A stretch of 37,057 nt of DNA from the IMG/VR virus record IMGVR_UViG_3300026519_000547, positions 1 through 37,057 of that record; one strand, 5' to 3'. The translations under genes were made by a program, and so were the position numbers. Position 1 is the first letter of the stretch; every line of letters begins with the position of its first letter. The stretch is from a virus. Below the pieces are notes generated by a model. The model saw nothing but the letters and a program-made list of their open reading frames with translations, made no database searches and had not been told where the DNA came from. Shown here one piece after another: positions 1,799 through 36,979 of this stretch.

Positions 1799-3837
1799 AG
1801 GAATGGTTCTCCGCAAAAGAACTTGCCGGGTTGCCGGGGATGCCGGTAACTGTTAGTGGTGTGATTCGGGTTGCCAAGCGCGAAAACTGGCGCTCCCGCA
1901 AGCGCCAGGGCCGCGGCGGCGGACGCGAATATCACCTCAATAGCCTGCCTCCAGAAACCCAGTCCCATCTTGGCGCCAGGAGGCTGATGGATCTGGCGAC
2001 GGATCTTCCTCTTCCAGGGCCGAAGCCCTTCGACCCCTTGGTGCATCTTGCTGCCGACGGGGATCTGACGGACCGGCAGCGGCGCGAGCGGGACGCGAGG
2101 GCTCAGGTGCTGGCGGCGGTGGAACGGATGCGGATGGAAGCCGAATGCACGCGAAAGGAGGCGCTGACGGCGTTGCTGACGACCGCGCGCGCAGGAGAAG
2201 CGCCGGCGGAACTGATCGCCGCGCTCAAGGTAGCGAAGGATCCGCGCGGGCGGCGGAGCGACAATCCGTTTCCATCCGTCAGAACCTTGAAACGCTGGCT
2301 TGGACAGGCAGATCTGGCTCCGAAGGTGCCGCAGAAAGACATGACGTTGCCGCCTTGGGCGGAGGCATTCCTGGAATGTTACCGGCGACCAGAAAAACCT
2401 TCGGTGGCGGCGGCCTATCGCCAGGCGTGCGCTGTCTGGCCGCCAGGTCAGCGGCCAAGCATCCATCAGGTGCGGCGGTTGCTGAAGAAGTTGGGTACGG
2501 CGGCGCGGGAGAGCGGCCGGCGTGGCCCGGTGGAGTTGAAGGCGGTGCTGCCGTTCGTTCGGCGCGGCTTCGAGGATCTGCTGCCGAACGACATCTGGAG
2601 CGCCGATGGCCATACTTTTGATGCCGAAGTCCAGCATCCCTTGCACGGACGGCCATTTCGGCCAGAGATCACCTCGGTGATCGACATTCGCACCCGGCGG
2701 GTGGTGGGTTGGAGCGTGGCCCTGGCTGAATCTGCCCAAGCGGTGGCCGATGCCTTGCGGCGGGGTATCGAGGTGTGCGGGGTGCCGGTGTGGTGGTATG
2801 TGGACAACGGCTCCGGTTACAAGAACCAGATGATCGCCGATCCCGCCACCGGGATTTGCGGCCGGCTGGGCATCCAGATCACCCACAGCCTGCCTTATAA
2901 CTCCCAGGCGCGCGGGGTGATCGAACGGCTGCATCAGACACTGTGGGTGACGGCGGCCAAGGATCTGCCCGGGTTCGTGGGCAAGGAGATGGATCGCCAG
3001 GCGCGTCTGGAACGGTTCAAGATCAGCCGGAAGGCATTGAAGCAAGGCGGCGCGATGCCGCTGATCCCGTGGGAGACGTTCCTGGATTTCTGCCGCGAGC
3101 GGGTGGACGCCTACAACGCCAGCCCTCATCGCAGTCTCGGCGGATTGTCCCCGGATGAGGCGTGGACGCGGCACGTGGAGCATGGCTGGCGCCAGCAAAC
3201 GATCCCTGACGAGGTGCTGACGACCCTGTTCCGCCCCCGGGTGACGCGGGCGCTGCGTCGGTGCGAAGTGCAATTGTTCGGAAACCTCTACTTCAACCTG
3301 GATCTGGTGGAGTTGCACGGCATGGAAGTCCAGGTGGCCTATGACATCCACGACCCGAACACGGTGTGGGTGTACGACCAGGACGGCCGTTACATCGCCG
3401 ATATGGCGTGGAACGGCAATCGTCAGACCTATCTGCCGGTTTCGGCTGAAGACCGGGAGAAACAAAAACGGGCGTTGGGAAGGTTGCAGCGTCTGGACAG
3501 CAAGAAGCAGGAGGTGCTCGAGGAGCTGAAGGGACAGCCGGTAATCGATTTGGAGGCGATGCGAGCGCGGCCCATGATCGGCGGGCGGCCGCTGGAGATC
3601 GGCAAGCAGGCGTCGGAGAAGGCGGACAAGCAACCGAAAAAACCGCGCTGCCGCAGCGAGATGAAGCCGGAGGAAGTGATGGCGGAATGGGACGCCATCG
3701 ACGCCCGGATCCGAGGCGGGGAAACGGTTTCGGAGGCGGACGCCCGCTGGCACGAGATGTTCCAGGGGCATCCGATATGGAAGGCCGAAATGAAGCGGCG
3801 CGGGAAGCCGCTGGATTTTAACGAGGCCGCCTGCTGA
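1795..3837 (+). CDS. A: Mu-type DDE transposase (MuA-like)
   Basis: This 680-residue transposase cuts and joins phage ends during integration and replicative transposition. The N-terminus (about residues 1-60, WFSAKELAGLPGMPVT) is the Mu end-binding winged-helix domain. The integrase core carries the catalytic triad D271 (WSADGH), D337 (YVDNGS) and E377 (VIERLH), close to D269/D336/E392 of MuA. The rest is the Mu-type C-terminal region, ending in a basic, proline- and lysine-rich segment that may contact the B protein. The length is near that of MuA (663). Translation starts at a TTG overlapping the previous stop (TTGA), with GGGGAG 8 bp upstream. No frame disruption or missing catalytic residue is seen. 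Confidence 0.97.
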   Translation: MKEWFSAKELAGLPGMPVTVSGVIRVAKRENWRSRKRQGRGGGREYHLNSLPPETQSHLGARRLMDLATDLPLPGPKPFDPLVHLAADGDLTDRQRRERDARAQVLAAVERMRMEAECTRKEALTALLTTARAGEAPAELIAALKVAKDPRGRRSDNPFPSVRTLKRWLGQADLAPKVPQKDMTLPPWAEAFLECYRRPEKPSVAAAYRQACAVWPPGQRPSIHQVRRLLKKLGTAARESGRRGPVELKAVLPFVRRGFEDLLPNDIWSADGHTFDAEVQHPLHGRPFRPEITSVIDIRTRRVVGWSVALAESAQAVADALRRGIEVCGVPVWWYVDNGSGYKNQMIADPATGICGRLGIQITHSLPYNSQARGVIERLHQTLWVTAAKDLPGFVGKEMDRQARLERFKISRKALKQGGAMPLIPWETFLDFCRERVDAYNASPHRSLGGLSPDEAWTRHVEHGWRQQTIPDEVLTTLFRPRVTRALRRCEVQLFGNLYFNLDLVELHGMEVQVAYDIHDPNTVWVYDQDGRYIADMAWNGNRQTYLPVSAEDREKQKRALGRLQRLDSKKQEVLEELKGQPVIDLEAMRARPMIGGRPLEIGKQASEKADKQPKKPRCRSEMKPEEVMAEWDAIDARIRGGETVSEADARWHEMFQGHPIWKAEMKRRGKPLDFNEAAC

Positions 3838-3885
3838 GACGGAGCCGGCGGCCCCAAGATGGTATGAACGAAGGAGGAAATGATA

Positions 3886-4626
3886 ATGCCAATCGCTGAA
3901 ATACACAACATGCAGCTGGCGCGTGCGGCGCTGGAGACGGTGCAATCGAGATCGCGCGGCCTGCCCGGGCTCGCGGTGATCTACGGACCCGCCGGATGGG
4001 GCAAGACGACGGCCCTGACCACGGTCGCGAATCAGACCCGGGCCTATTACATTCAGATGCGCAGCGCATGGGGACGAAAGAGCTTCCTGGAGCATTTGAT
4101 GGTGGCCATGGGGCTTGCGGACGGGCGCAGGGTGATGGCAGGTAAGAGCATCGGGACCATATCCCAAATGCTGGACCAGATCGCCGAGCAGCTGGCCTTG
4201 TCGGACCGCCCCTTGCTCATCGATGAGGCGGATTTCCTGATCAAATCGGACGGCATGGCTGAATTGCTGCGGGACGTATACGAGGCGTCCGGAGCCGCCA
4301 TCGTTCTGTCCGGAGAAGAGATGATGCCGGCGAAGATGGCGCGCTGGGAGCGGCTGCATTCGCGGGTGTTGGGCTGGATCCCGGCGCAACCGGTCAATCT
4401 GGAGGACGCCAAACTGTTGGCTCCGGTGTATTGCAGACTGCCGGTCGCAGACGACTTTCTGGCGTACCTGGTGAAAAACGCCGGCGGATCTGTGCGGCGT
4501 GTTTGCGTCAATCTGTCACAGGCTCAGGACGTGGCGATGCTGGAGGGATGGGAGCAGATCGATCGGAAGACTTGGGGCGAGCGGCCGATCTACACCGGCG
4601 AAGCGCCGGCAAGGGGGGCGCGATGA
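3886..4626 (+). CDS. B: MuB-like AAA+ ATPase, target-DNA activator
   Basis: This 246-residue AAA+ protein should bind target DNA, stimulate the A transposase and give target immunity. Walker A is GPAGWGKTT (about residues 34-42), Walker B is LLIDEAD, and a sensor-like IVLSGEE follows. The C-terminus matches the small helical MuB domain (GGSVRRVCVNLSQA). It is shorter than MuB (312) because the N-terminal HTH domain is absent. An ATG at 3880 is only 2 bp from the AAGGAGG at 3871-3877, whereas 3886 is 8 bp away, so 3886 is chosen. It follows A after a 48-bp gap. Confidence 0.95.
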   Translation: MPIAEIHNMQLARAALETVQSRSRGLPGLAVIYGPAGWGKTTALTTVANQTRAYYIQMRSAWGRKSFLEHLMVAMGLADGRRVMAGKSIGTISQMLDQIAEQLALSDRPLLIDEADFLIKSDGMAELLRDVYEASGAAIVLSGEEMMPAKMARWERLHSRVLGWIPAQPVNLEDAKLLAPVYCRLPVADDFLAYLVKNAGGSVRRVCVNLSQAQDVAMLEGWEQIDRKTWGERPIYTGEAPARGAR

Positions 4627-9296: not shown

Positions 9297-9920
9297 ATGT
9301 CAGAACTCATTCCTTTCTCATATGAATCCCACGTGCTTCGTGTTGAGCCGGACGTGGACGGAGAGCCAATCTTCCACGCCAATGACCTGTGCGCCCTTTT
9401 GGGATACAAGAACCCGCGTGATGCCGTGCGCCGACACGTCGAGGAGGATGACGTCGTGAAACGCGACGTCATCGATTCCCTGGGCCGCACCCAGATGGCC
9501 AACTGGGTACGCGAACCCGGCATGTGGTCGCTGATACTCGGCTCCGAGACAGAACAGGCCAAGCGGATCAAACGCTGGGTCACGTCCGAGGTCCTGCCAC
9601 AGATCCGCAAGACCGGCGGCTACCAGGTGGATCCGGACACCATCGCCATCCCCAAGGACGAATACATCGCCCTGCTGGAAACCCAGGTGGCGGCGCTCAA
9701 GGCAAAAACATCCTTCCAGCCAGGCCCCCGCGCCTGGACGGAAGAGGAGGACAGGCAGCTCATAGAGCTGCGCCGCCAGGGGCTTGGGTTCACCCGGATC
9801 GGCTACCGTCTGGGGCGCAGCGAGAGCAGTTGCAAGCATCGCTGGCAGCGACTCAGTCTGCGCCATGCCGCCGTCTTGGAGCAGCAGGGCGAAATGTTCA
9901 CCCAAGGAGGTGCGGCATGA
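9297..9920 (+). CDS. ant: Bro-N antirepressor with C-terminal SANT/HTH-like domain
   Basis: This 207-residue protein should counter repression. Residues ~8-105 form a Bro-N domain (IFHANDLCALLGYKNPRDAV ... GMWSLILGSETEQAKRIKRW, then VTSEVLPQIRKTGGY), the family used by P1/P22-type antirepressors. After a short coiled segment, residues ~144-188 (AWTEEEDRQLIELRRQG ... RIGYRLGRSESSCKHRW) resemble a Myb/SANT-like HTH. TAGGAG is 7 bp before the ATG. The c4-type RNA and its target immediately upstream predict post-transcriptional silencing in the lysogen. Confidence 0.88.
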   Translation: MSELIPFSYESHVLRVEPDVDGEPIFHANDLCALLGYKNPRDAVRRHVEEDDVVKRDVIDSLGRTQMANWVREPGMWSLILGSETEQAKRIKRWVTSEVLPQIRKTGGYQVDPDTIAIPKDEYIALLETQVAALKAKTSFQPGPRAWTEEEDRQLIELRRQGLGFTRIGYRLGRSESSCKHRWQRLSLRHAAVLEQQGEMFTQGGAA

Positions 9921-12656: not shown

Positions 12657-14351
12657 GTGGCTCCACGTCCGCGACGAATCGCCCTGCCGCCGGGCGTCAA
12701 GCCCCGCACGCCTTTTGAGCTCGACATGGGCAACCCCCTTGCGCGCGAGCTACGGCTGTTCCTGCCGCTCGCGGAGCGCGCCGGAACGCCGAGGGACGCT
12801 GCGGCGAACGTCCAGGTCGATACTTACAACCCGGCGCTGTGCGATTGGAGGCCGGGAGACGCGCTGTTCATCGCGCAAGCCGCAAGCACGGCTGACCTGC
12901 CCGCGTTGTCGACTGCACTGGGCCGGACGTACACAGACTTAACCTCGTACTCGTTTACCGCGTGGCTTGCCTTGCACACCCTGGCGGTGAACTACAACCG
13001 CGCCGCGTATGTCGTGGAGTCCACGACTGGAGGGGACAGGTTCGGGTTCCAGCGTCTTAACGGCGCCTTGCAGCTTGACTCCAACGGCGCAGCGCCAGGC
13101 ATAGACGGGCCTACGGTCGTGCAAGACGAGTGGTATCTATGCACTGGAGTGCATGATGCTGACACCTCCACTGTGACGTTCTACGTCAACGGAGGGCTGG
13201 TGGGTAGCGGCTCGGTGACAAAGCCGTGGCTCCTGAACAACATCGGCGTGTTGATGTTGGCGACTTCCGAAACGGGGACCACGTACGGCATGCAGGACCA
13301 GAGCCACCGGCTGGTCATGCTGCACGACCGTGCGCTTTCTGCGGCCGAGGTCAAGCGGCTGCACGAAGATCCATACGCGCCGATCCGCAAGCGGCGGGTG
13401 TTTGTGCCGGTTGCTGCCGCCGCGCAGACCGATCTTTCCGGCGCGGCACAGTCATCCGCAACTGGCCAGGCATCGCTCACGGCCGACGTGCCCATCTCCG
13501 GCGCCGCGGTGTCCGTGGCGTCCGCATCCGGCGGGCTGGCTTCATCCGTTCCGTTGACGGGCGCCGGTTACGCTGCGTCCATCGGCTCGGCATCGCTTCA
13601 GGCAGGCGCCGATCTTTCCGGCGCAGCCCAGGCGCAGGCTTCAGGTTCCGGGTCGGTGGCGTTGTCCGTCCGTCTGGACGGGGCGGCCGTCGCCGCCGCA
13701 ATTGCCCAGGCGGCGCTGTCGGCCGGTGTCGATCTGTCGGGTCAGGCTGCGGCTGGCTCTGGTGGATCCGGGGCGCTTTCGACAGGCGCCGATCTTTCCG
13801 GTGACGCCCAGGCGCAGGCGGCAGGTTCAGGCAGTATCACGATCCAGGTGACGCTGGACGGCAGCGCGATTTCGGAGGCGCTGGCATCGGCTGGGCTCGA
13901 CTCCGGTTCCGGCGATCTTTCCGGCGCGGCTGCGGCGGGCGCTTCGGGTGCGGCGGCGATGATCATGGACGTGCCGGTCGCAGGATCGGCCGCCTCCGTT
14001 TCGTCCGCCGACGGCTCGCTGTCGGCGATTCTGCCGCTGCGTTCGGTCGCGGTATCCGGTTCCAGCGCGACCGGCGGCCTGACGGTACAGGCCGGGCTGG
14101 ACGGCCAAGCGGTCGCCAACGCCATGGCATCCGGAGTGTTGGCGGTGGATGCCGGGTCCACGCTCAGCGGTGATGCGGTCGCAGAATCGGCAGGGTCAGG
14201 CGTGTTGTCGCTGCGGTTGACGCTGAATGGGGGGGCGCTGGCAAATGCTGTGGCGTCTGCGATGCTGACCGGCACGTTGGATGCGCTGGTGGTGCGGCGC
14301 TGGACAGTTTCCGCCGTCCGACGCGACTTTACGGTGAGGGCGAGGGGATGA
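12657..14351 (+). CDS. fibre-like protein: LamG domain plus ~14 Ala/Gly/Ser repeats
   Basis: This 564-residue protein starts at a GTG. Residues ~75-235 fit a LamG/concanavalin-like domain: YSFTAWLALHTLAVNYN, EWYLCTGVHD, TFYVNGGLVGSGSV and the closing HDRALSAAEVKRLHEDPYAP. From ~258 to 535 there are about fourteen ~20-residue units of the form DLSGAAQAQASGSGSVALSV, a possible beta-solenoid or rod. The end is basic (VRRDFTVRARG). The domain pair suggests a glycan-binding head on an extended stalk, so adsorption is likely. Position between lysis and packaging genes is unusual for a fibre. Confidence 0.8.
   Translation: MAPRPRRIALPPGVKPRTPFELDMGNPLARELRLFLPLAERAGTPRDAAANVQVDTYNPALCDWRPGDALFIAQAASTADLPALSTALGRTYTDLTSYSFTAWLALHTLAVNYNRAAYVVESTTGGDRFGFQRLNGALQLDSNGAAPGIDGPTVVQDEWYLCTGVHDADTSTVTFYVNGGLVGSGSVTKPWLLNNIGVLMLATSETGTTYGMQDQSHRLVMLHDRALSAAEVKRLHEDPYAPIRKRRVFVPVAAAAQTDLSGAAQSSATGQASLTADVPISGAAVSVASASGGLASSVPLTGAGYAASIGSASLQAGADLSGAAQAQASGSGSVALSVRLDGAAVAAAIAQAALSAGVDLSGQAAAGSGGSGALSTGADLSGDAQAQAAGSGSITIQVTLDGSAISEALASAGLDSGSGDLSGAAAAGASGAAAMIMDVPVAGSAASVSSADGSLSAILPLRSVAVSGSSATGGLTVQAGLDGQAVANAMASGVLAVDAGSTLSGDAVAESAGSGVLSLRLTLNGGALANAVASAMLTGTLDALVVRRWTVSAVRRDFTVRARG
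13427..14265 (+). repeat. tandem ~60-bp coding repeats in the fibre stalk
   Basis: GATCTTTCCGGCG-type starts recur at 13430, 13610, 13790 and 13914, and ~60-bp units encode [D/L]xSGxAxAxAxGSGxLxxxV. Some paired units are nearly identical (13607-13650 and 13787-13830), so unit number could change by recombination. Confidence 0.75.
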
Positions 14352-25235: not shown

Positions 25236-27691
25236 GACTGGAACTGCGAGGCATTCGCGGCGACCTGCGGCGGATGCGTTCGGAATTCAATCAGGCGTTT
25301 TCCGGCATTCGCCGGTCGTCTCTATCCTTGGGCCGGGCTCTGGCCGGCGTGTTTTCCGGTCTGTCCGCCGCCGCGGGTATCCATTCAATCGTCAGGATCG
25401 GCGTGGAAATGGATTCCCTGCGCCGGCGTCTCAAGGCCGTCAGTCGGGATCAGCATGACTTTTCTTCTTCGCTTCGGTTCGTCCGATCGGAGGCAAACCG
25501 CCTGGGACAGGATTTCCAGCAGCTTCTTCGCAGCTATATCGATTTCAAAGCGGCGACAGATGCCGCAAACCTCGGAATAGACCAGTCCAGGGAGATTTTC
25601 AGCGCCTTCAGTGAGACTATTTCGGTGCTCGGTCTCAGCAGCGAGGAGGCGGGCAGGATCTTTTTGGCGCTGCGGCAAATGGTATCCGGCGGCGTTTTGC
25701 AGATGCAGGATCTGAATCAGATTGCCGAGTCGCTGCCCGGCGCGTTCGATGTCTTCGCAAAGGCCATGGGCGTTTCCGTTCAGGAGCTGCGGCAGTTGAC
25801 CAGCGAAGCCAGGATCAACGCCACGCCGGCTCTACTGAGGGTTTCCCGTGTGTTGCGCGAGCGATTCGGACGCAATGTCGCCGATTCCGCCAACAGCGCA
25901 CGGGCGGCCTTCAACCGCCTTTCCACCGCCTGGCAGCGATTCGCCGACGCCATCGCCACATCCGGCGCGCTCGATGCGCTGGTGGATAGCGTCAACAGAT
26001 TACGCGAGCTATTGAGCGATCAGGGCGTCATCAATAGCGTTAAAAAATTCACCCATACCCTGATCGATGGTTTTTCCGCCGCGGTCAAACACGGCACTAC
26101 GTTGGTCAAGGTGTTGGTTCTGCTGAAGGCGGCCGCCGCCGGATTGCGTATCGGGAGGAGTTTCGGTCCTCTGGGCGGATTGGTGGGCGGGCTGGCCGGA
26201 ACCGGGTCCGGGTTGGCGGCGCTGAAGGAGGTCGACGCGCTGTTGAAAAGCTGGCGCAAGGAAACTGCAGGGGCTGCAAACGATACCAGCGGCTATGTGG
26301 ATCAAGTGGCGAAGCTGCGGGACCAATACAAACTGGCTACGGAATACCTGAAACAGTGGGGAGCCGCCTATGCGGATGCGCGGAAAAAAGGCAATGAGGC
26401 TCTCCAAAACACGATCAAGAAGGAAATCGATCGCTGGGCATTCATCGCGCAGGAAGCCAGGAAACAATTGGATCTGCTGGCAAAAAGAAGCGCTCCGGAA
26501 GTTCTGCCTGCGGTTCCCAAAGGAAAACCAAAACCTCCGCATCCGGTCATCGTCGACAAGCCGGGAAAAGAGATCGATGTCGGGCGGATTCGCAAAGAAT
26601 TGAGACAAATCGACGCCGAGATTTTGCGGTTGCAAGGGAGAACAGTAGAGGCCACCCGGGCGGCGCTGGAGACGCAATTCGCAGGTCTAGTTGAGAAGCT
26701 GCGCAAAATCGGCGATCGGGCTGGCCTGGCGAAAGTCGAAAAACTCATAGACATGTCGGTTGCCAGAGCCCAATTGGCATCGCTGACGGAAGATTACTCG
26801 AAATTCCGTGATCGCGTCGGTCGGGCTCTGGATCAAGTCAATCAGAAGGTCCAGCTTGGCATTCTGTCGCAACGCGAAGGCCAGGCGCAGCTGACGCGGT
26901 TGTACGAGGATGCCATCGACAAGATGCGCCAATACCGGGTGCAGGCGGCGAAACTGCCGGGCAGCAAGGCATTCATAGGGGAATTGAGATCCGCCGTTTT
27001 GGAAACGCAGGTGCAATTGCGGCAGATCAAGAGTCAGTTCGGCCAGTTTTTCATGGGCATCACCGATGATGTGAGGAATGCGCTGTCATCGCTCTTCCAG
27101 GGACTGATAGACGGCAACAAATCCATCAAGCAAAGCTTGATCGATTTCGCCCGTGGCCTGGCCGAATCGATTCAAAGGCGTCTGTCGGAAAGAGCTGCGG
27201 ACGCGCTGACCAAGGCGCTGCTCGGGGACAGCACGAAAAAGGCGTTCGATCAATTATTGAATCAGGCGACTTCGACGTTCGAAAGAATGGGCCAGTCATT
27301 GACTTCCATCTTGAGCAGCGCCGTCAGCGGAATCGGGAGTATATTGCGCAATCTTTTCAGCAGTCTTGGCAATAGTCTGGGTAGTTCATACGTGAGCACT
27401 TATCACGATGGCAGGGGTTTCAGCGGGAAGCGGATTGGCGGGCCCGTTCTTGGGGCGCCAAGATTGCACCGTGGATTGATGCCGGACGAATTCCTTGCGG
27501 TCTTACAAAAGGGAGAGGTCGTGTTGCCGAAAAATCTGGTCAAAAACATGCCGAAGAAAGATGCGGGTGGAAACCATATCGTGGTGAACAACTCGTTTAT
27601 TATTTCGTCCCCGACCGACAGATCGAGCCAGGAGCAAATCGCTGCCAAGGCGGGGCTAGCGATAAGCCGCGCGATTAGGAGGATGGAGTAG
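25205..27691 (+). CDS. tape measure protein
   Basis: This 828-residue protein sets tail length and helps eject DNA. The N-terminal region holds the Phage-tail-TMP-like segment (LGLSSEEAGRIFLALRQMVS, LNQIAESLPGAFDVFAKAMG, residues ~145-200). Several long helices follow (~255-620), including a glycine-rich hydrophobic stretch SFGPLGGLVGGLAGTGSGLA, and the end is GEVVLPKNLVKNM ... NNSFIISSP. At ~1.5 angstroms per residue the tail would be roughly 120 nm (inference). No strong ribosome site precedes the ATG, so coupling to the chaperone fusion is likely. Confidence 0.95.
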   Translation: MPENSIEIRLGLELRGIRGDLRRMRSEFNQAFSGIRRSSLSLGRALAGVFSGLSAAAGIHSIVRIGVEMDSLRRRLKAVSRDQHDFSSSLRFVRSEANRLGQDFQQLLRSYIDFKAATDAANLGIDQSREIFSAFSETISVLGLSSEEAGRIFLALRQMVSGGVLQMQDLNQIAESLPGAFDVFAKAMGVSVQELRQLTSEARINATPALLRVSRVLRERFGRNVADSANSARAAFNRLSTAWQRFADAIATSGALDALVDSVNRLRELLSDQGVINSVKKFTHTLIDGFSAAVKHGTTLVKVLVLLKAAAAGLRIGRSFGPLGGLVGGLAGTGSGLAALKEVDALLKSWRKETAGAANDTSGYVDQVAKLRDQYKLATEYLKQWGAAYADARKKGNEALQNTIKKEIDRWAFIAQEARKQLDLLAKRSAPEVLPAVPKGKPKPPHPVIVDKPGKEIDVGRIRKELRQIDAEILRLQGRTVEATRAALETQFAGLVEKLRKIGDRAGLAKVEKLIDMSVARAQLASLTEDYSKFRDRVGRALDQVNQKVQLGILSQREGQAQLTRLYEDAIDKMRQYRVQAAKLPGSKAFIGELRSAVLETQVQLRQIKSQFGQFFMGITDDVRNALSSLFQGLIDGNKSIKQSLIDFARGLAESIQRRLSERAADALTKALLGDSTKKAFDQLLNQATSTFERMGQSLTSILSSAVSGIGSILRNLFSSLGNSLGSSYVSTYHDGRGFSGKRIGGPVLGAPRLHRGLMPDEFLAVLQKGEVVLPKNLVKNMPKKDAGGNHIVVNNSFIISSPTDRSSQEQIAAKAGLAISRAIRRME

Positions 27692-28320
27692 TGCCTTACC
27701 CGGTCTTGGATGTCGGGATCGATTACGGTACTGCGGGCGGACCAGGGTTTTCCACCGATATTGTCACTTCGGCGTCAGCGTTCGAAAAGCGTACCTCGCG
27801 CAATCTATATCCTCGAGGACGTTGGCAGCTTGGGGAGCGCCTGGTCGACGAGACCATGCTGCAGTATTTGCATTCGTTCTTCGTCGCGATGGAAGGCCGA
27901 TTCGGGACTTTCCGGTTCAAGGATTGGGGCGATTATACCGCAGACAAGTCGGGCGTCGTCTCGCGCGGGGCGGTTCAGCAGGGCATCGGTCAGTACGTGG
28001 ATGCCAACACCGCGATGCTGATGAAAAAATATACGGTTTCCGGGGTGGAAACCAAACGCCGGATTTTCTTCCCAATTGCATCCTCTGTGGTGGTGGAGGT
28101 CAACGGATCCCCAGCGTCCATCACCGTCAACGATGAAACCGGCCTGGTGACTTTCGGTTCGCCCATCGCCAATACGGACGTGATCACTGCTTCGTTCGAG
28201 TTTCACTGCCCGGCTAGATTCGATTCAGACGAATTCGTGGCATCGTTCGAAAACATGGAGAACGGGTACAAGGTGTTCTTTCTGCAATCATTACCGGTGA
28301 AGGAGGTTTTGCCCTACTGA
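27691..28320 (+). CDS. DUF2460 distal tail protein
   Basis: This 209-residue protein belongs to the DUF2460 family found in gene transfer agent and lambda-like tail tips. Marks are the start PVLDVGIDYGTAGGPGFSTD, the pattern YLHSFFVAMEGRFGTFRFKD, and the ending FHCPARFDSDEFVASFEN. It probably forms the Dit-like ring connecting tube and tail tip. GTG start overlaps the tape measure stop by one base. Confidence 0.92.
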   Translation: MPYPVLDVGIDYGTAGGPGFSTDIVTSASAFEKRTSRNLYPRGRWQLGERLVDETMLQYLHSFFVAMEGRFGTFRFKDWGDYTADKSGVVSRGAVQQGIGQYVDANTAMLMKKYTVSGVETKRRIFFPIASSVVVEVNGSPASITVNDETGLVTFGSPIANTDVITASFEFHCPARFDSDEFVASFENMENGYKVFFLQSLPVKEVLPY

Positions 28321-29174
28321 TGAAAACAGTCAATCAGTGGTTGAAAGACAAGCTAGCGACTCAGTCGGTGAAACTGGCGCACATCGCCCGGATCCGGCGC
28401 AAGGATGGCCAGCTGTTCGGTTTCATAGAATCGGACGTCCCTGTGACTATCGAAGGAGTGGAGTACAAGCCCCAGGAAGGAATGAAGCAGTCCACGACAA
28501 AATGGAGCAGCAAGGGCACTCCGAATCACCAAACATTCGTCGGATATCTGTCGTCCCCGGACATTGTGGAAGAAGAATTGGAAGCAGGGCTGTTCGACGA
28601 TGCGCGCGTGGATATCGCGTTGATCGATCTCGACAATCCCCCTGCCGTGTTTGCCGCCGGCGACATGATATGGCTGGGATCCTTTTTCATCGGAGAGGTG
28701 AAGTTGATCGATGGGATATTCCAGGCGGAGATCGTTTCGCTGTCGGACAAGCTGCGCACACCGATCGTAGAGCTGACTTCTCCAACCTGCCGCGCGAGCT
28801 TCGGGGACGCCCGGTGCAAGTTCGATCTCAGCACCGTCAGGGTGGCCACCACCATTGTTTCCGCCACTGCGACACAAATCGTGGTGGCGGATTCAATCGC
28901 GTCTCTGAACATGGCCTATGGAAAGATCACCATCAATACAGGTAGGCTTAAGGGACAGACTTTCGATGTGCTGTCAGCCGCCGATGCCACGACACTGGAC
29001 TTGTTCATCCCGTTGGAATTGCAGCCCGCGGTTGGGGACTCGGTTTCCGTTTACGGCGGTTGCGACAAAACAATCGCCGCATGCCGTGGCTATAACAATG
29101 CGGTCAACTTTCAAGGGGAGCCGAACATTCCGGGGGCGGATAAGTGGAAGGCCGGGTTTCGAGAAGTGCTCTGA
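28320..29174 (+). CDS. DUF2163/BR0599 tail-tip hub with Fe-S cysteine pattern
   Basis: This 284-residue protein has an N-terminal DUF2163 half (KLAHIARIRRKDGQLFGFIE, then GVEYKPQEGM) and a C-terminal BR0599-like half. The four cysteines C157/C166 and C248/C255 have CX8C and CX6C spacings, matching the 4Fe-4S ligand arrangement of lambda gpL-type tail-tip proteins. A hub subunit that may close the tail tube. No other cysteine pattern occurs in it. Confidence 0.92.
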   Translation: MKTVNQWLKDKLATQSVKLAHIARIRRKDGQLFGFIESDVPVTIEGVEYKPQEGMKQSTTKWSSKGTPNHQTFVGYLSSPDIVEEELEAGLFDDARVDIALIDLDNPPAVFAAGDMIWLGSFFIGEVKLIDGIFQAEIVSLSDKLRTPIVELTSPTCRASFGDARCKFDLSTVRVATTIVSATATQIVVADSIASLNMAYGKITINTGRLKGQTFDVLSAADATTLDLFIPLELQPAVGDSVSVYGGCDKTIAACRGYNNAVNFQGEPNIPGADKWKAGFREVL

Positions 29175-29587
29175 TCGCAGAATCCCGGGAATGGATCGGC
29201 ACGCCCTACAGGCATGGCGTATGCGCGAAAGGCCACGGCAGCGATTGCGTCGGCTTCGCGCTGACGGTTTTCCAGAAATTCGGCCTGGTGCCTGACGATA
29301 TCAAATTGCCAAGGATCTATCCGATGGAACCGGAATCGTATCTGCTGCAACGTTATCTGGATAAATATCTGGTGCGCGCAGAGACAATCGAACCAGGGTT
29401 CGTCGGGCTCTTCAAGTTCAAGACATATCCGCAGCACCTTTGTATTTTCTCGACCATAGACAAAACCGGGCTGCCGGGCATGATTCACGCCAGTCTCTTG
29501 TTCAAACGGATCGTTGAACACCATTATTCCGACGAGTGGCAGCACTGGTTCGTCGGCGCCTATAAGCCGCACCAGGTGTTTTACTGA
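29144..29587 (+). CDS. NlpC/P60-family tail-tip peptidase
   Basis: This 147-residue cysteine peptidase should cleave peptidoglycan peptides at entry. C35 in GSDCVGF is the nucleophile and H98 (QHLCIF) or H115 (IHAS) the histidine partners. The pattern WIGTPYRHGVCAKGHGSDCV is characteristic. GTG at 29144 overlaps the hub gene by 31 bp. It lies, as usual, between the hub and host-specificity genes. Confidence 0.92.
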   Translation: MEGRVSRSALIAESREWIGTPYRHGVCAKGHGSDCVGFALTVFQKFGLVPDDIKLPRIYPMEPESYLLQRYLDKYLVRAETIEPGFVGLFKFKTYPQHLCIFSTIDKTGLPGMIHASLLFKRIVEHHYSDEWQHWFVGAYKPHQVFY

Positions 29588-30516
29588 TGGCCTCGTTGGT
29601 TCTGTCTGCCGCTGGATCCGGCATTGCTTCGTACGCGGCGGGTGGGTCGTCGACCGTTGTCTTCGCGGGGCTCACGGCGTCGCAGCTGGGCGCGGTCGTG
29701 GGCGCGGCGGTAGGTTCCGTGATCGATCAGTTGGTCATCTTTCCGGCCCTGTTCGGCGATTCCGGCGACAACCTGTCGCAGAATGTAACGATCGGCGCGA
29801 TGGCGGGAAACATCACGATGCCATCAGCGAATTACAGCACTCCGATTCCGATAATAGGGGGTATCGACAGGGTTCGCCTGGCCGGGAGTTTGATCTACGC
29901 CAGCAGCATCCGGGAAGAAGTATTGCAGGCGGCGCAGACTTCCGTTTCGAAACGCAGTGGCGGAAAGGGAGGTGGCGGTTCGTCAAAGGTGAAAACCACC
30001 ACCTATGTCAAGAAATACGAATATTTCGGGTCGTTTTCATTCATGTATTGCGAGGGCGAGGTGATATACGCGGAAATATACGCGAACGGAAAGCTGCTCA
30101 GCGCAGACTACGTGAACGAAGCGATCACCGAACATACGGGAACAGACGCCCAGATTCCGGACAGCATCATCGAAGGAGAATATGGCGCCGGTAACGCCCC
30201 GGCTTACCGAGGACGGGCCTATGTGACGTTCCGGGACGTTAATCTGGATCCTTTCGGAAACAGGATTCCGGAAGTGTCCGTAGTGCTTTATCCATCCGTC
30301 ACATCACTGAGCACGTTCATCACCAATATCCTGACCCGAGTCGGATTCGACGCGTCAGAAATTTACGTGGATGCCGCCATCGATTCGATCGTGTTTCACT
30401 CCGTCGTATTATCCGACACATTGAGTGTAAGAAATATCTTACAACAACTGGCGACGACATTTGATCTGTATTTCACAGAATCGGATGGCAAAATCAAGGT
30501 TGGGAAGCTGCAATGA
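29587..30516 (+). CDS. host-specificity tail protein, N-terminal module (truncated paralogue)
   Basis: This 309-residue protein corresponds to the N-terminal third of gene transfer agent-type host-specificity proteins. The glycine-rich membrane-like start (GAVVGAAVGSVIDQLV), a tail-typical STPIPIIGGIDRVRLAGSLI and the pattern AYRGRAYVTFRDVNLDPFGN are diagnostic. It ends at FTESDGKIKVGKL, the same point at which the next, larger gene is interrupted. The normal middle and C-terminal parts are missing here and are found in the following two genes. The stop overlaps the next start by 4 bp. Confidence 0.82.
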   Translation: MASLVLSAAGSGIASYAAGGSSTVVFAGLTASQLGAVVGAAVGSVIDQLVIFPALFGDSGDNLSQNVTIGAMAGNITMPSANYSTPIPIIGGIDRVRLAGSLIYASSIREEVLQAAQTSVSKRSGGKGGGGSSKVKTTTYVKKYEYFGSFSFMYCEGEVIYAEIYANGKLLSADYVNEAITEHTGTDAQIPDSIIEGEYGAGNAPAYRGRAYVTFRDVNLDPFGNRIPEVSVVLYPSVTSLSTFITNILTRVGFDASEIYVDAAIDSIVFHSVVLSDTLSVRNILQQLATTFDLYFTESDGKIKVGKLQ

Positions 30517-33500
30517 GTAGCGGAACGATGGAGACGATACATTTCGTCGCCACGAGGATCATCGCGCCCCTGGCTGGAACGGTGCTCGGCATCTACGGCG
30601 GCCCAATAACGGGATTGCTCGCCAGCATCACCACGCAGCTGCAATCCGATCTCATCATGCGGGAATGGTACAACCCGCCCGGACCGAAACAAAAGGATGG
30701 TCCGAGCACAAACCCAATTTCCCCGCCGGAAGCGACATATCTTGCCCCAGGCACGGATTATGGAAACCCGATCCAGCGCATATTCGGTGTCGTGAGCGTC
30801 AATACCAACTTGCTGGCCGTCAAGCAGAAAGGAATTTACGACGACAGCGTGCTTGTGTGGAACGATTTCGAAGGCCGGGTGCGGATCTCCAAGAAACGGA
30901 AAGTAGGCGGTTCATACATCTTGGCCAAGATGGAGACGCCCATTTACACTTTCGCGGTTATGGTTGGCGGCCCGATCACGGCGGTGCACCGGATTTGGTT
31001 CAATGGCGCAATTGTCTATGACCGAAGGGTTTTCGGGGATGCACGGGTTCAGTACCGCACCACCTCAGCCTATTTCACCGTTTACCTGGGGACCGACGAC
31101 CAGATGCCGGACCCGGATCTTGGATCGGATGTCGCCTATCGCGGTCGCTCGTATGTCGTGTTTCACAATGTTTCTCTCAAGGAATTCAATGACAGGATTC
31201 CGGATGTCAGGGTGGAAGTGAGCGGTCAGGATGTCGGCATCCAGGCTTTCAACTCCACGGATTATTACAGCGGTTATATGTCGTTCCAGGAGTTGCGGGC
31301 GGTGTACACCAATAAAGACAAAACCGGAACTCGCCAAACAGTCGACAGCTATACCATAGAATACGACAACAACGGTGACACAGTGATTCTGGACAGCCAA
31401 GGAGGGGAGGTTGATCCGGACGCTCTTGGGGAAGTCATGCCGTGGAGCATTCTTCCATTGCCTGGGCGCTTGGATACAGACTACGACGGAACCGTCTACG
31501 AGCGCAGTCGGAATGCCAAATATGCCATGTCGATCCCAAAGCTGATATGGCGTTATTACGACAGGAGCGGGAACAATCTAAGTCAAGAAAGATATTGGCT
31601 GCCTGGTCCGGGCGAGATTCCTGGCAGGTTCTATGGTTCCGGTTTCAACATCCATAAGGAAAACAAGCGTCAATATTACGGTGATTTGTTCGAGCAGGTG
31701 GACACGTGGTTTATGCGTGACCAGCTGACAAACAAGGATATGATTTCCGTTGATGATAACGTTCAGGGGTTCGTCTTCGGCAACAAAGCCGTGGTGGATT
31801 TCAAGAAGGATAATACGGTGCCCAGAGGCGCAGAATATCCGTATTACGCGGACATTCAGCCGGTCAATCTCTGGGCGATCGGCGACAGGATCCCGCTGTC
31901 GCTGGTGCTCTCCCATATCCTGGAACAGTGCGGTTTTTCCAAGGACGAATACGACGTGTCAGAATTCGCGACTTTGGAAATTCCAGGATTTGTACTGTCC
32001 CGGTACGAAACGGCCATAGAGACTTTGGCCAAGCTCAGCCGGGCGTATTTTTTCACCGTATCCGAAACAGATGGGAAACTGCGCATACGGCCGGAAGCAC
32101 AGCCAATATGGAATATTGACCACAGAAACTGCATGATCAACGAGGACGGACTGGTCGTCAATTCGTTGCACGACGTGGCAGGGCGCGACGGCTATTTTAG
32201 CAGCTCGAGCGGGACGTCAGAAGGACAGTTCACATTGTGCCTGGCGGCGGCAAAAGCCTACCAGGCAACTGGAGAGGGCGGCTGGTTGGATTACGCGGTC
32301 AGGCTCGGAGAAGCATCATTAACGCTTTATGCCGCCAACCCAGGCTCTGGAAGTGTCTGGGCGCCGCATTGGCTGTTCAATGTGAAGCGGCCGATCAAGC
32401 TGGATTCCGCGTTCATGTACGCCAATTTCGGTTTCGACGGATCGGGATCATTATCGATTCCTCATGGGGCGCCGTTCTACGGTGAGAACGTTAAAGATGT
32501 CACTAAGCTGAGCAGCGGCTGGGGCGTCTATTTGTGGCGAAACGTGTTCGCAGACATGGTTTATACCGGATATGTCCCCACGCTGAGTGTGTTCTGGGGG
32601 CGAGGACACGGAGATTGGTGGTATTGGGGGCGGGAAGAAGTTCCGCCGCCAGACCCACCGCCAGACCCACCGCCAGACCCTCCACCCCCGACGACCTATC
32701 AGTGGGAAGCGAATCCGTCCGGGCACGGTAAATGGACGTATTCCTATTCGTTCACCTATCACACATATGAAGGTATGGGAGTCGTCACGCCACCGGCACA
32801 TCCATTGCAAGCGCCGACAATTACCGACAGGCCGATGACGCTCGAAATCACCAGCGTCGATATTTCTACCGGGACGGTCAGCTATAACATTCCGGCTGAT
32901 TATTCACACAACGGTCGCGTGGCCGTCACGTATATCATGAGCGAGATCGGCGAGTACCTTGACGTTGGTGAAATGTATGAGGCTTGGCCGTTTTGGCGTC
33001 GGATGAAAGAGGGGGAAGTGGCCGGCGCTGGCGACAGCCTGTATTGGGCGCACGACGCCTATTCAGCCCTGTTCTCAATCACTGGGGAATCGCGTTGGTT
33101 GGACTGTAAATCCGCAAATGAGAACACTCTCCTCTCCGTCTCCAATCTGGACGATGGCAGATTGTGGATGTTCGAGTTTCCGGGCGTTAAGGAAGCGTTC
33201 GTCGATAACAGCATGTTCTTCCGGTCGGATAGGGACGGTGTAACGATCAAAAACGTGTCCCGGGATGAATTCTCCGGGCGGGTGGTCCTGGCCGTTCCAC
33301 GAGGCACAGGGGAAGTGCAGATCGGCCGCGGATTTTATGACGATAACACAATAACAGAAATCTACTGGGAAGTGGAACTTGTAGACGGCGACCCGCAGAG
33401 GCTGTCAGACTTCATATACGACTCCGGAAAAGGCGTCCAGAAAACGGGGGTCACTTTGGCGTTCGACGATAGGCAGACGTTTGACCCTCGCCACCGGTAC

Positions 33501-34733
33501 ATTTACGACTTGACACACCACCTGCGAAACGGAGAAACGAGCGGCACGGTCTCGGTAAAAGCGTTCAGAACATTGTTATGGGCCGGAGACCCAAACCTAC
33601 AATGGACCGGAGACCCAATATATTCGCTCATGGTTTCTGTGTGGGGCACAGGCACGCCCGTGAAGCTCAAGATAGGGACAATACGCCCTTATCCAGAAGC
33701 GCCAATGCAGTATGTGCCCGGCGCACCTGTGTTCACGGTTAACACGTTTCTAAACAACAAGATGCCGTGGTCTGGCGCACCTGGCATTGGGTACGCGTAC
33801 CCTCACGTGTGGCACAGCATGGGGGCGACGACAGAGTTCAACAACACCGTGCAGTTTTTGGACGACGCAGCCACACAATACACCGCAAGAACCGGAGAAA
33901 CCGGGTGGATGGTGCCGGCCTATTACTGGCCCAGATTCGACAATCTTGAATACGGAACGCCGGGTACGTGGGGATGGAAATGGGTGGACCCTAACAGCCA
34001 GTGGGGCGGATACTTCTACAGAAACTTGTATTCGATGGCAAAAAGCGCGCACGTGTCCAACATCCTGAAAAACAGAGCGTATGAGAGAATCGAGAGAATT
34101 GATACAGACTGGCCCGGATGGCCGCAATTTCCGATCACGGATGTCAAGGGCGAAACTTTGGATGTATGGGCGCCGAACACCAAATTTGTGTGGGGCGGAT
34201 ATAATGGTAACTCCAACATTATCCGCCCGACGATAGTCAACGGGTTTGTTTACAAGCCTTTGGCGACGGGCACAAGCGGATCCTCGGAACCGGTCTGGCC
34301 GACGACCATAGGTGCAACTGTGAACGACGGCGGGATCACATGGGAGTGTACCGGCTATCAGTATGGTGTAGGCGCATACGGCAACTATCACGAGCCGCAC
34401 TTCTGCGCTTTGATATTGAGAGCGTGCTATTACCTGGAAACCGGCGGCGCAATTCTGACGCCCGCCCAATTGGCTGTTGTTGATTCGGCCGCGCAAAAAT
34501 GTTGGGCATACTTGCGAGACCTGTACCGTGACGATGCTTCCCCTTTCGATGGCAGTTGGGCGGATCCGGCAAATAACAATTGGTGGGCATTCTGGCATGG
34601 AGAGATTGTACTGACGCTGGCTGAGATCAAATCCGGTGGATGGAGCAAGCCGTGGTTGAATCTTTCTGAAGTGGATTATCAGTTGAACGGGAGCCTTGAT
34701 TTCTGGAAGCGCTGGGACAGGAAATATGCCTGA
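30513..34733 (+). CDS. host-specificity protein interrupted by a large carbohydrate-active-like module
   Basis: This 1406-residue protein has two unrelated parts. Residues 1-545 repeat the host-specificity N-terminal module (GNPIQRIFGVVSVNTNLLAV, AYRGRSYVVFHNVSLKEFND, FTVSETDGKLRIRPE), paralogous to the previous gene. From ~550 on it is different: helical repeats AAAKAYQATGEGGWLDYAVR and AHDAYSALFSITGESRWLD look like an (alpha/alpha) toroid; a proline hinge sits at ~711-726; and TSGSSEPVWPTTIGATVNDG (~1255) matches a carbohydrate-binding-like tail-fibre motif. The normal downstream part continues in the next gene. Likely a receptor-binding protein or polysaccharide depolymerase; enzymatic residues could not be assigned. 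Confidence 0.82.
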   Translation: MSSGTMETIHFVATRIIAPLAGTVLGIYGGPITGLLASITTQLQSDLIMREWYNPPGPKQKDGPSTNPISPPEATYLAPGTDYGNPIQRIFGVVSVNTNLLAVKQKGIYDDSVLVWNDFEGRVRISKKRKVGGSYILAKMETPIYTFAVMVGGPITAVHRIWFNGAIVYDRRVFGDARVQYRTTSAYFTVYLGTDDQMPDPDLGSDVAYRGRSYVVFHNVSLKEFNDRIPDVRVEVSGQDVGIQAFNSTDYYSGYMSFQELRAVYTNKDKTGTRQTVDSYTIEYDNNGDTVILDSQGGEVDPDALGEVMPWSILPLPGRLDTDYDGTVYERSRNAKYAMSIPKLIWRYYDRSGNNLSQERYWLPGPGEIPGRFYGSGFNIHKENKRQYYGDLFEQVDTWFMRDQLTNKDMISVDDNVQGFVFGNKAVVDFKKDNTVPRGAEYPYYADIQPVNLWAIGDRIPLSLVLSHILEQCGFSKDEYDVSEFATLEIPGFVLSRYETAIETLAKLSRAYFFTVSETDGKLRIRPEAQPIWNIDHRNCMINEDGLVVNSLHDVAGRDGYFSSSSGTSEGQFTLCLAAAKAYQATGEGGWLDYAVRLGEASLTLYAANPGSGSVWAPHWLFNVKRPIKLDSAFMYANFGFDGSGSLSIPHGAPFYGENVKDVTKLSSGWGVYLWRNVFADMVYTGYVPTLSVFWGRGHGDWWYWGREEVPPPDPPPDPPPDPPPPTTYQWEANPSGHGKWTYSYSFTYHTYEGMGVVTPPAHPLQAPTITDRPMTLEITSVDISTGTVSYNIPADYSHNGRVAVTYIMSEIGEYLDVGEMYEAWPFWRRMKEGEVAGAGDSLYWAHDAYSALFSITGESRWLDCKSANENTLLSVSNLDDGRLWMFEFPGVKEAFVDNSMFFRSDRDGVTIKNVSRDEFSGRVVLAVPRGTGEVQIGRGFYDDNTITEIYWEVELVDGDPQRLSDFIYDSGKGVQKTGVTLAFDDRQTFDPRHRYIYDLTHHLRNGETSGTVSVKAFRTLLWAGDPNLQWTGDPIYSLMVSVWGTGTPVKLKIGTIRPYPEAPMQYVPGAPVFTVNTFLNNKMPWSGAPGIGYAYPHVWHSMGATTEFNNTVQFLDDAATQYTARTGETGWMVPAYYWPRFDNLEYGTPGTWGWKWVDPNSQWGGYFYRNLYSMAKSAHVSNILKNRAYERIERIDTDWPGWPQFPITDVKGETLDVWAPNTKFVWGGYNGNSNIIRPTIVNGFVYKPLATGTSGSSEPVWPTTIGATVNDGGITWECTGYQYGVGAYGNYHEPHFCALILRACYYLETGGAILTPAQLAVVDSAAQKCWAYLRDLYRDDASPFDGSWADPANNNWWAFWHGEIVLTLAEIKSGGWSKPWLNLSEVDYQLNGSLDFWKRWDRKYA
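32643..32690 (+). repeat. proline-rich hinge encoded by 12-bp repeats
   Basis: About three copies of GCCAGACCCACC-type units encode PPDPPPDPPPDPPPP, a rigid linker between two parts of the large tail protein. Confidence 0.8.
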
Positions 34734-36162
34734 TAACATTACACATGCTCTTGGAATCACGTCCGGCGCACCTGTCGCCCGCATTATCAAGACCGTTCGT
34801 GATGCCAACGAATTGCCCTATCGCATCGCTCTGACCTATTTCGATGTGGACTTAAACGGCGCTGTAAGCGTGGTTCATTCAAGCACAACCAGAAAAGGCG
34901 GCCGGGAGGTTGCGCTTTCACTGCCGGTTTTTCTCAAACGGTCAGACGCGAAAGAATTAGCTGACAAGATCATGCTGAAAGCCTGGTCAGAGCGGGTTCA
35001 ATATCAGTTCAGTCTGCCCATAACATATGTCATCTACGATCCGGGGGATGTTTTGGAGCTCCAGGACGATGAGACTGGGCAAGCCATTTCTTGTAGGATT
35101 GTCGAATCGGTCTATGATCCAACTGGTATTATTCATATCACGGCTGTACGGCACGATCCATCTGTTTATACATTTCAAACCAATTACTCGGATAATTCCG
35201 GCATAACACCTGCTTCCCCAACTTATGCAACCGCGTCGTTCTACGTGGCCGAATGCAACATGCCGCTATATGACATGGAACCGCCCGCGTTTTGGGTGTT
35301 TCCGGTCGCAAAACAGGATTTCCGCCAAGCGGAGCTGTACGTGTCGAAAGATGGGGGCGCATCGTGGAATGGGGAAGGACCTATAACAGGTGGAACGTTC
35401 GTCGGAACTGTTCAGGCATATGTTCCTGCAGGCAAAGCCGCCATTCGGGATTATAAAAACAAGCTCGTTATTACCCCGGATATCGACTGTAATTACACCT
35501 TACAATCTCGCTCGATGATGGAGGTCGTGGACGGTAAAAATCAGCTTCTTGTCAATGGAGAAATCATACGGTTTGAAACCGCGACTCTGCTCGGGAACGG
35601 AGACTGGGAGCTGAGCGGTTTATACCGAGGATCGCGCGGTACGGAAGATAAGGCCGGGCTACCCATCGACAGCGGCGCGAAAGCGATGCTGCTGGATAAT
35701 GCCATCCCAGTTTACGACTATAGGCCCGGGCAAACCGTAGAAGTCAGGATGCCGGTTACCGCATTGGGCGAGGCGGTAGACTCTGTGCCAGGCCAGCTTC
35801 TTAACATCGAAGGGGTTTCTTGGAAGGCGCTGCCTCTCTGCAGGATTCGCGCGGAATGGTTGAGCTCTACACAGGTCAAAATATCGTGGGCTCATCGCAA
35901 CCGCTATCTGCGCGACTGGAATGGGTACAATGATGAGCCGGAGGACGCTGATTTCGAAAGTTATGAGTTGCGCGTTTCTGGATATAACGGTACTCCTAGT
36001 ACAAGGAGTGATCATCATATGATTCTTAACGTCGGAAATGAGCTGCCGTCCGGCCCCTCCACCTGGACGATCACGCTCTTCCAATCCACCCACAAAATCA
36101 AAACAGGCCGTCAGAGATACTTCACACTCACATTGGGTGAGAACCTCTTTATCAAGGATTAA
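34726..36162 (+). CDS. host-specificity protein, C-terminal module
   Basis: This 478-residue protein supplies the middle and C-terminal part of the gene transfer agent-type host-specificity protein: ELPYRIALTYFDVDLNGAVS (domain that normally follows the DGKLRIRPE segment), ELSGLYRGSRGTEDKAG (the conserved RGxRGTE motif) and an Fn3-like end (ISWAHRNRYLRDW ... FESYELRVSG). AGGAAA precedes the ATG at 34726, overlapping the previous gene by 8 bp. It therefore looks like the split-off second half of one ancestral gene. Confidence 0.85.
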   Translation: MPDNITHALGITSGAPVARIIKTVRDANELPYRIALTYFDVDLNGAVSVVHSSTTRKGGREVALSLPVFLKRSDAKELADKIMLKAWSERVQYQFSLPITYVIYDPGDVLELQDDETGQAISCRIVESVYDPTGIIHITAVRHDPSVYTFQTNYSDNSGITPASPTYATASFYVAECNMPLYDMEPPAFWVFPVAKQDFRQAELYVSKDGGASWNGEGPITGGTFVGTVQAYVPAGKAAIRDYKNKLVITPDIDCNYTLQSRSMMEVVDGKNQLLVNGEIIRFETATLLGNGDWELSGLYRGSRGTEDKAGLPIDSGAKAMLLDNAIPVYDYRPGQTVEVRMPVTALGEAVDSVPGQLLNIEGVSWKALPLCRIRAEWLSSTQVKISWAHRNRYLRDWNGYNDEPEDADFESYELRVSGYNGTPSTRSDHHMILNVGNELPSGPSTWTITLFQSTHKIKTGRQRYFTLTLGENLFIKD

Positions 36163-36172
36163 GGAGAATGCC

Positions 36173-36979
36173 GTGGCAACACCACTGATCGCCCTAAGCG
36201 ATTTGCTTTCCGGACAGTCAAATGCCTATTTCACCATCAACGAGAACAACCGGGGGTTGGAGATCTTCGCGTGTGGAGTTCTCGAATCCGTTACCCAAAC
36301 AACTCCGCCGACAAATCCAGCTGACGGTCTCGGGTATTATGTTCCGGCTGGAGCTGGGGGTGACTGGGCAAGTCTGGTTGGATCTATTGTCGTCTCTCAA
36401 GGAGGGTCCTGGTTTCAATATAACGCTCCTATGCATGCGCGATTCTGGATCAAGGACGAAGCGGCGCTCAAGCGGTTTGACGGCTCCACCTGGCATGACA
36501 TGGGAACTGGAGGCGCGCCGAGGGGTAAGACTTATATCAATCCAACAACGGCTACTTATACGCTGTCTGGTGCCGAGTCTGGAAACGCAACGATTATGCT
36601 TGACGGCGTGAACGTCACGACAGTCGAGTTTCCTATCATGGATGGAGGGTATTGGGAAATCGTTAATAACGCTTCCAATGATGTTTCTGTGAAAACCATT
36701 GGCGGAACTGGCTCTGTCACCGTGTTTTCTGGGAAACGGGCATTTGTCGTATGCGATGGTACCAATCTGATTACAGCCCAGGATTCGTTCCCGTACGGTT
36801 TCAAAATGGGAGGGACGCTGGATTTACCAGTTTACTCCGTTGCGTCCGCTCCGGCCAGTGGCTCATTCGGCGCTTTGATCTTTGTAAGTGATGGCAACGC
36901 TGGGTCGCCATGCTTGGCATCATGGGATGGTGCTTCATGGAAAAGAATAGCTCTTGGAGCAACAATTAGTGCTATTTAG
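36173..36979 (+). CDS. DUF2793 tail-fibre protein
   Basis: This 268-residue protein begins at a GTG 6 bp after AAGGAG. Residues ~40-115 match DUF2793 (GYYVPAGAGGDWASLVGSIV, SWFQYNAPMHARFWIKDEAA), a fibre domain of unknown role that often follows host-specificity genes. The C-terminal half is beta-rich (KTYINPTTATYTLSGAESG, TGSVTVFSGKRAFVVCDG). As the last gene before the right end it is the most likely variable receptor-contact fibre. Confidence 0.88.
   Translation: MATPLIALSDLLSGQSNAYFTINENNRGLEIFACGVLESVTQTTPPTNPADGLGYYVPAGAGGDWASLVGSIVVSQGGSWFQYNAPMHARFWIKDEAALKRFDGSTWHDMGTGGAPRGKTYINPTTATYTLSGAESGNATIMLDGVNVTTVEFPIMDGGYWEIVNNASNDVSVKTIGGTGSVTVFSGKRAFVVCDGTNLITAQDSFPYGFKMGGTLDLPVYSVASAPASGSFGALIFVSDGNAGSPCLASWDGASWKRIALGATISAI

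Follow-up and report, generated by a model that had tools for sequence, protein, structure and literature searches.

A predicted RcGTA-type megatron encoded across three overlapping genes of a Mu-like phage

Megatrons are baseplate proteins of gene transfer agents (GTAs), and their central domain is homologous to a hub domain of T4 gp27. In the viral DNA analysed here (37,057 nt in full, hereafter the window), three consecutive genes, ORF1, ORF2 and ORF3, resemble successive and partly repeated portions of such a protein, which raises the question of how a megatron came to be divided between genes and what each product would contribute to the baseplate. An initial reading of the DNA (the original prediction) proposed that the 5' half of a GTA-like host-specificity gene had been duplicated in tandem and that a foreign receptor-binding or depolymerase module had then entered the second copy and split the gene.

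Genome context and domain composition of the three genes

The source record is that of a virus, a Mu-like transposable phage encoding MuA, an AAA ATPase, GemA, a large terminase, a portal, a P22-type coat, a major tail protein and a tape measure protein. Elsewhere in the window, a fusion of a Bro-N antirepressor with a Myb-like DNA-binding domain is encoded at 9297-9920, and a 564-aa protein with a Laminin_G_3/concanavalin-like domain (12657-14351), for which the phage collection gave no match, lies directly 5' of the terminase genes. A 928-aa open frame at 1603-4389 on the minus strand, antisense to the MuA transposase gene, is probably a composition effect.

On the 3' side of the tape measure gene, Pfam matches give the order DUF2460, DUF2163, NlpC/P60, ORF1-ORF2-ORF3 and DUF2793. 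This is the context in which RcGTA-type megatrons are found (DUF2460, DUF2163, NlpC/P60, megatron, DUF2793); a matching gene order is described for RcGTA-type baseplates (PMC7296036; PMC8265664) and a DUF2793 fibre for RcGTA and R7M (PMC8265664). The features of the region are as follows:

27691..28320, + strand: DUF2460 distal tail protein, RcGTA g12 equivalent (Pfam PF09343)
28320..29174, + strand: DUF2163 baseplate hub, RcGTA g13 equivalent (Pfam PF09931, PF09356)
29144..29587, + strand: NlpC/P60 peptidase, RcGTA g14 equivalent (Pfam PF00877)
29587..30516, + strand: ORF1, 309 aa, predicted stand-alone megatron N-terminal half with iris/penetration-like N-terminus, adhesin-like domain and N-half of the central domain (NF048004, phrog_4271, PDB profiles, Foldseek)
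29818..30282, + strand: ORF1 adhesin-like domain, residues 78-232 (106 bits, profile of non-toroid hubs)
30304..30501, + strand: ORF1 N-half of the central domain, residues 240-305 (23 bits, E 2e-8, non-toroid hub profile)
30513..30516, + strand: ATGA, overlap of ORF1 stop and ORF2 start (sequence)
30513..34733, + strand: ORF2, 1406 aa, second predicted megatron N-terminal half followed by a toroid module (alignments, phrog and NF048004 matches)
30756..31220, + strand: ORF2 adhesin-like domain, residues 82-236 (74 bits, non-toroid profile)
31221..31886, + strand: ORF2 extra insert of ~220 aa, residues ~237-458, between adhesin and central parts (alignments)
31890..32090, + strand: ORF2 N-half of the central domain, residues 460-526 (42 bits, non-toroid profile; Pfam Phage-tail_3 positions 4-52, below cut-off)
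32124..34682, + strand: toroid module phrog_2871, ORF2 residues ~538-1390 (phrog_2871 8e-97; AF2; Foldseek)
34726..34733, + strand: ATGCCTGA, 8-nt overlap of ORF2 stop and ORF3 start, AGGA upstream (sequence)
34726..36162, + strand: ORF3, 478 aa, predicted C-half of the central domain and fibre-binding domain (PDB profiles, Pfam, NF048004)
36038..36979, + strand: DUF2793 fibre-type protein (Pfam PF10983)

The ATG at 34726, which is preceded by AGGA and opens the 8-nt overlap with the end of ORF2, is the best start for ORF3 and is preferred over an upstream TTG at 34696. In three further contigs with the same genes (L016, L017 and L029), the ORF1/ORF2 junction is TGATG and the ORF2/ORF3 overlap is ATGCTTGA, so that the overlap pattern ATGCYTGA is kept in the window and in all three contigs. 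The DUF2793 protein probably starts downstream of 36162 and is expected to be the partner of the ORF3 fibre-binding domain.

The claim that the three genes jointly hold one GTA-like hub protein was borne out, as all of them match the GTA_megatron family (NCBIfam NF048004, length 1299) at different places: ORF1 at 1-198 (E 1.4e-40), ORF2 at 64-201 and ORF3 at 850-1245. Each ORF scores 63-139 bits and does not reach the equivalog cut-off of 800 bits, which applies to a single chain; each is therefore a homologue rather than an equivalog. ORF1 additionally matches phrog_4271 at positions 1-203, and its family profile aligns with 6tba_8A at 1-210 and with 8gtc_M at 1-212. The ORF3-family profile aligns with 6tba_8A at 836-1296 (E 1.7e-30) and with 8gtc_M at 1000-1437, and ORF3 has Pfam matches to Phage-tail_3 (58-160) and Rcc01698_C. 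RcGTA-type megatron features are thus found as an N-terminal iris/adhesin region in ORF1 and ORF2 and as central and fibre-binding domains in ORF3, which, as predicted, continues the hub with the remaining part of the central domain. A TIM-barrel (GTA_TIM) Pfam domain is absent from all three ORFs. Judged by these profile matches, the three ORFs together cover the RcGTA megatron.

The domains of 6tba_8A are iris (1-46), adhesin-like (47-229), peripheral (230-744), central (745-984) and fibre-binding (985-1304) (PMC7296036). A profile that includes ORF1 extends over 1-829 of this chain, and the ORF1-side and ORF3-side profiles meet at 829/836, which places the break inside the central domain. 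An AF2 model of ORF1 (pTM 0.63) retrieved 6tba_8A first in Foldseek (E 1.2e-9), followed by the R4C megatron and the T5 tail tip. A weak structural match was obtained to JBD30, a Casadabanvirus whose hub is described as trimeric and whose upper baseplate proteins are separate (PMC11445458). The term “iris” serves here as a label for the N-terminal segment only: a 2026 preprint attributes the iris helices of RcGTA to the tape measure protein instead (PMC13420450), so an iris role of the megatron N-terminus itself is uncertain. In domain order, N- and C-terminal profile matches and neighbouring genes, the locus resembles the megatrons of RcGTA (Rcc01698, g15; PDB 6tba/6teh) and R4C (PDB 8gtc). 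These are, however, single chains without a duplicated N-half, and where the window has a toroid within the central domain, they carry a TIM-type peripheral domain.

The paralogous N-terminal halves and the toroid module

That the N-termini of ORF1 and ORF2 are paralogous and can be aligned was confirmed: the motifs quoted in the original prediction are present, BLASTP aligns the two at 1e-9 (47 bits, against a best score of 26 bits in a shuffled control, n=400), and hhalign matches ORF1 family 1-305 to ORF2 family 1-527 at 99.9% (E 1.9e-35). ORF2 is indeed interrupted at the point where ORF1 ends, the N-half of its central domain being followed by ~850 aa of unrelated sequence. The second insert in ORF2, of ~220 aa at residues ~237-458, had been missed. 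It is much shorter in L016, L017 and L029, and its position is taken in RcGTA by the peripheral (TIM) domain (borders from PMC7296036). In contig L010, an insert that looks unrelated occupies this site.

The larger insert matches phrog_2871 in two stretches (8e-97). In an alignment of 35 sequences, T33, E35, G36, W85, D306, W310, W629 and R635 (numbered within the insert) are invariant, and an AF2 model based on this alignment (mean pLDDT 79.9, pTM 0.82) predicts an (alpha/alpha)-toroid and a beta-sandwich. The top Foldseek matches of this model in the PDB are GH48 cellulases and D-glucuronyl C5-epimerase, together with beta-sandwiches that bind carbohydrate, with TM at most 0.41; the match to the GH48 (alpha/alpha)-barrel has E 1.6e-4, probability 1.0 and TM 0.40 on the target. 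Membership of GH48 was considered and is unsupported by sequence, as PF02011 was not matched and hhalign gave a probability of 18.5%. From the model we infer a glycan-active-like toroid, and a depolymerase role is only suggested.

The view of the module as foreign and portable was substantiated by the presence of the same toroid on other tail proteins. It lies unsplit at the same central-domain site in the single-gene megatrons of R7M, R9Y1, L009, L019, L020, L024 and L052. In L060 (7994-11047) the toroid is inside the DUF2163 hub and the megatron is without one, which indicates movement of the module from one baseplate protein to another. Its neighbours are weak DUF2460 matches below the cut-off in L071 and L030, a Calx-beta domain in L068 and L074, and a T7-type fibre N-terminus in Alteromonas phage H4/4. 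The carriers comprise at least three kinds of tail protein (megatron central domain, DUF2163 hub and T7-type fibre), and probably also DUF2460 and Calx-beta proteins. The phrog_2871-type tail proteins of H4/4 and of Klebsiella phage N133 thus share a homologous toroid with ORF2, but mount it on other anchors, such as the T7-type tail-fibre N-terminus. A 698-aa toroid relative with 20% identity is encoded on a Sarcina ventriculi chromosome contig (L041:9884-11980).

Conservation of the three-gene layout

In L016, L017 and L029 the three genes (~300, 1182-1187 and 471 aa) have the same domain borders as in the window, at about 30-37% identity. L016 and L029 hardly differ, and L017 shares about 90% identity with both, so that only two independent lineages are represented, the window included. 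The dN/dS values between L016 and L017 are 0.18 for ORF1, 0.24 for ORF2 and 0.27 for ORF3, which indicates purifying selection on all three genes. On this comparative evidence, the three-gene arrangement is judged to be old and maintained, and the notion of a recent local rearrangement is contradicted by the recurrence of the whole layout at 31-36% identity. The scenario set against the original prediction, in which the layout is ancestral in all close relatives, holds in part: the layout is ancestral for this lineage, but not for the wider family. All other hubs inspected, including six from a last scan, are encoded by a single gene or are split elsewhere. The megatrons of RcGTA, R4C and R7M have been published as one chain (PMC7296036; PMC8265664), and the open-licence literature on split megatrons gave no description of this three-gene arrangement, which is weak evidence. 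Searches with ORF1 alone against viral contigs and with an ORF2 profile against genome contigs were both unproductive.

The proposal that insertion of the toroid split the gene found no support, since the same module occupies the same site uninterrupted in the seven single-gene hubs named above and ORF2 has lost no hub residues. ORF2 and ORF3 are collinear with single-chain toroid hubs without missing residues; the terminal helix of the toroid closes ORF2 and the linker after it opens ORF3, so a single-chain toroid megatron appears to be represented completely.

Several known systems share part of the arrangement. The Alteromonas phages vB_AcoS-R7M and vB_AmaS-R9Y1/2/3 and contigs L009, L019, L020, L024 and L052 have the same toroid at the same central-domain site, but their megatrons are one chain with one N-half and without the iris-type N-terminus. 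Two megatron paralogues lie close together in Caulobacter/Brevundimonas jumbo phages (CcrColossus gp122/gp123, Kabachok) and in Erythrobacter phage XM05; unlike in the window, both copies are full length and unsplit, and the duplication is separate on the tree. Paired full-length megatrons of Caulobacter, Brevundimonas and Erythrobacter phages are located at L012:2331-9519, L011:5929-12618 and L050:1533-9471. In Xanthomonas phage Langgrundblatt2 and Stenotrophomonas phage Sonora, the megatron is likewise split into separate genes, with the adhesin domain in a gene of its own, but the split follows the adhesin domain, the N-half is single and there is no toroid. An unrelated gene lies between the two megatron parts of these phages (L045:2249-6299, L046:2119-6344), and their three-gene cluster was ruled out as an instance of the same arrangement on account of its unrelated middle gene and the different position of the split.

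Division of labour and competing explanations

Against profiles built from toroid-free hubs only, and in three genomes that represent two lineages, the central half scores 42-48 bits in ORF2 and 22-28 bits in ORF1 (window, L016, L017), whereas the adhesin domain scores higher in ORF1 than in ORF2 (106/74 in the window, 132/116 in L016 and 130/109 in L017). These scores indicate complementary divergence, with the more canonical adhesin domain kept in ORF1 and the more canonical central half in ORF2. Mainly on this ground, it is proposed that ORF2 and ORF3 rebuild the central domain and that ORF1 supplies the ring; drawn from the same scores, this division of labour is a hypothesis and not a test. 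A three-polypeptide RcGTA-type megatron, in which ORF2 and ORF3 would rebuild the central domain in trans and ORF1 would act as an iris/adhesin ring, is regarded as the moderately probable reading of the locus.

In such an assembly, the N-half of ORF2 and ORF3 would form the central domain in trans, collinear with the single-chain relatives R7M and L052, where the toroid is a loop of the central domain. The distal-tail ring would serve as the docking site for three ORF2-ORF3 pairs and three DUF2163 hubs, with the toroid held outwards toward host surface glycan and the DUF2793 fibre held via ORF3. ORF1, as a subfunctionalised extra copy, would supply the iris/adhesin ring that closes the tube, and the overlapping start and stop codons would couple translation, so that the pieces are made together. 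ORF1 retains half of a central domain, which would be needless for a pure ring protein, and may therefore also pair with ORF3. An arrangement in which the central domain is assembled in trans and either N-half, the plain one of ORF1 or the toroid-bearing one of ORF2, can join one common C-half, giving a variable number of glycan-active modules per hub, is considered unlikely. Similarly unlikely is full interchangeability of ORF1 and ORF2, both pairing with ORF3 in mixed-trimer hubs with zero to three toroids: both N-halves stop at one point, and both central halves are recognisable and under purifying selection, but the two are unequally conserved.

A different core would follow if ORF1 and ORF3 were the original continuous megatron and a cassette of N-half and toroid from an L052/R7M-like hub had landed in its central domain, giving rise to ORF2 and to the split in a single event; in that case the core would be formed anew by ORF1 with ORF3, and ORF2 would be an extra decorated subunit. 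ORF1 ends at the toroid start point in ORF2, and an adhesin-loop expansion common to ORF2 and the toroid hubs, also seen in a few canonical hubs, is not found in ORF1. In the N-module tree, in which the N-module branches are not starred, the ORF1s group together (83/91) and the ORF2s group apart from them with toroid-megatron N-termini (80/88); moreover, L016_1 and L016_3 both have good matches (3e-38 and 2e-52) to L038, a single-chain hub without a toroid. However, ORF1, ORF2 and the toroid hubs are jointly set apart from the canonical hubs (98/95; 100/95 after realignment), and the central half of ORF1 is the more diverged copy, which would be odd for a core formed with ORF3. This explanation is considered possible but doubtful. 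In the ORF3 tree, the ORF3s form one clade (95/93). AU tests did not reject a single clade of ORF1 and ORF2 (p 0.10 and 0.24) and were borderline for a duplication inside the window's own lineage (0.053); the two N-halves may have originated by tandem partial duplication or from two sources, both of which are compatible with these tests. Overlap of adjacent genes in different frames could also point to a recent accident or to an assembly or frameshift artefact splitting one gene, but three further contigs share these borders and overlaps at an identity of 31-36%, and all three genes are under purifying selection, which makes this exceedingly improbable; a recent frameshift or assembly error was ruled out by the layout conserved in L016, L017 and L029.

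Taken on sequence comparison, the layout is no recent accident but a conserved design, which this Mu-like phage shares with a few distant relatives. So far, the megatron has been regarded as a single multidomain chain; in this locus, the central domain that forms the tube is divided between genes and kept by selection, with the N-half duplicated. The split central domain would offer a natural experiment on the folding and pairing of baseplate domains in trans, and the occurrence of the toroid on several kinds of tail protein suggests a widespread host-surface module that is as yet uncharacterised.
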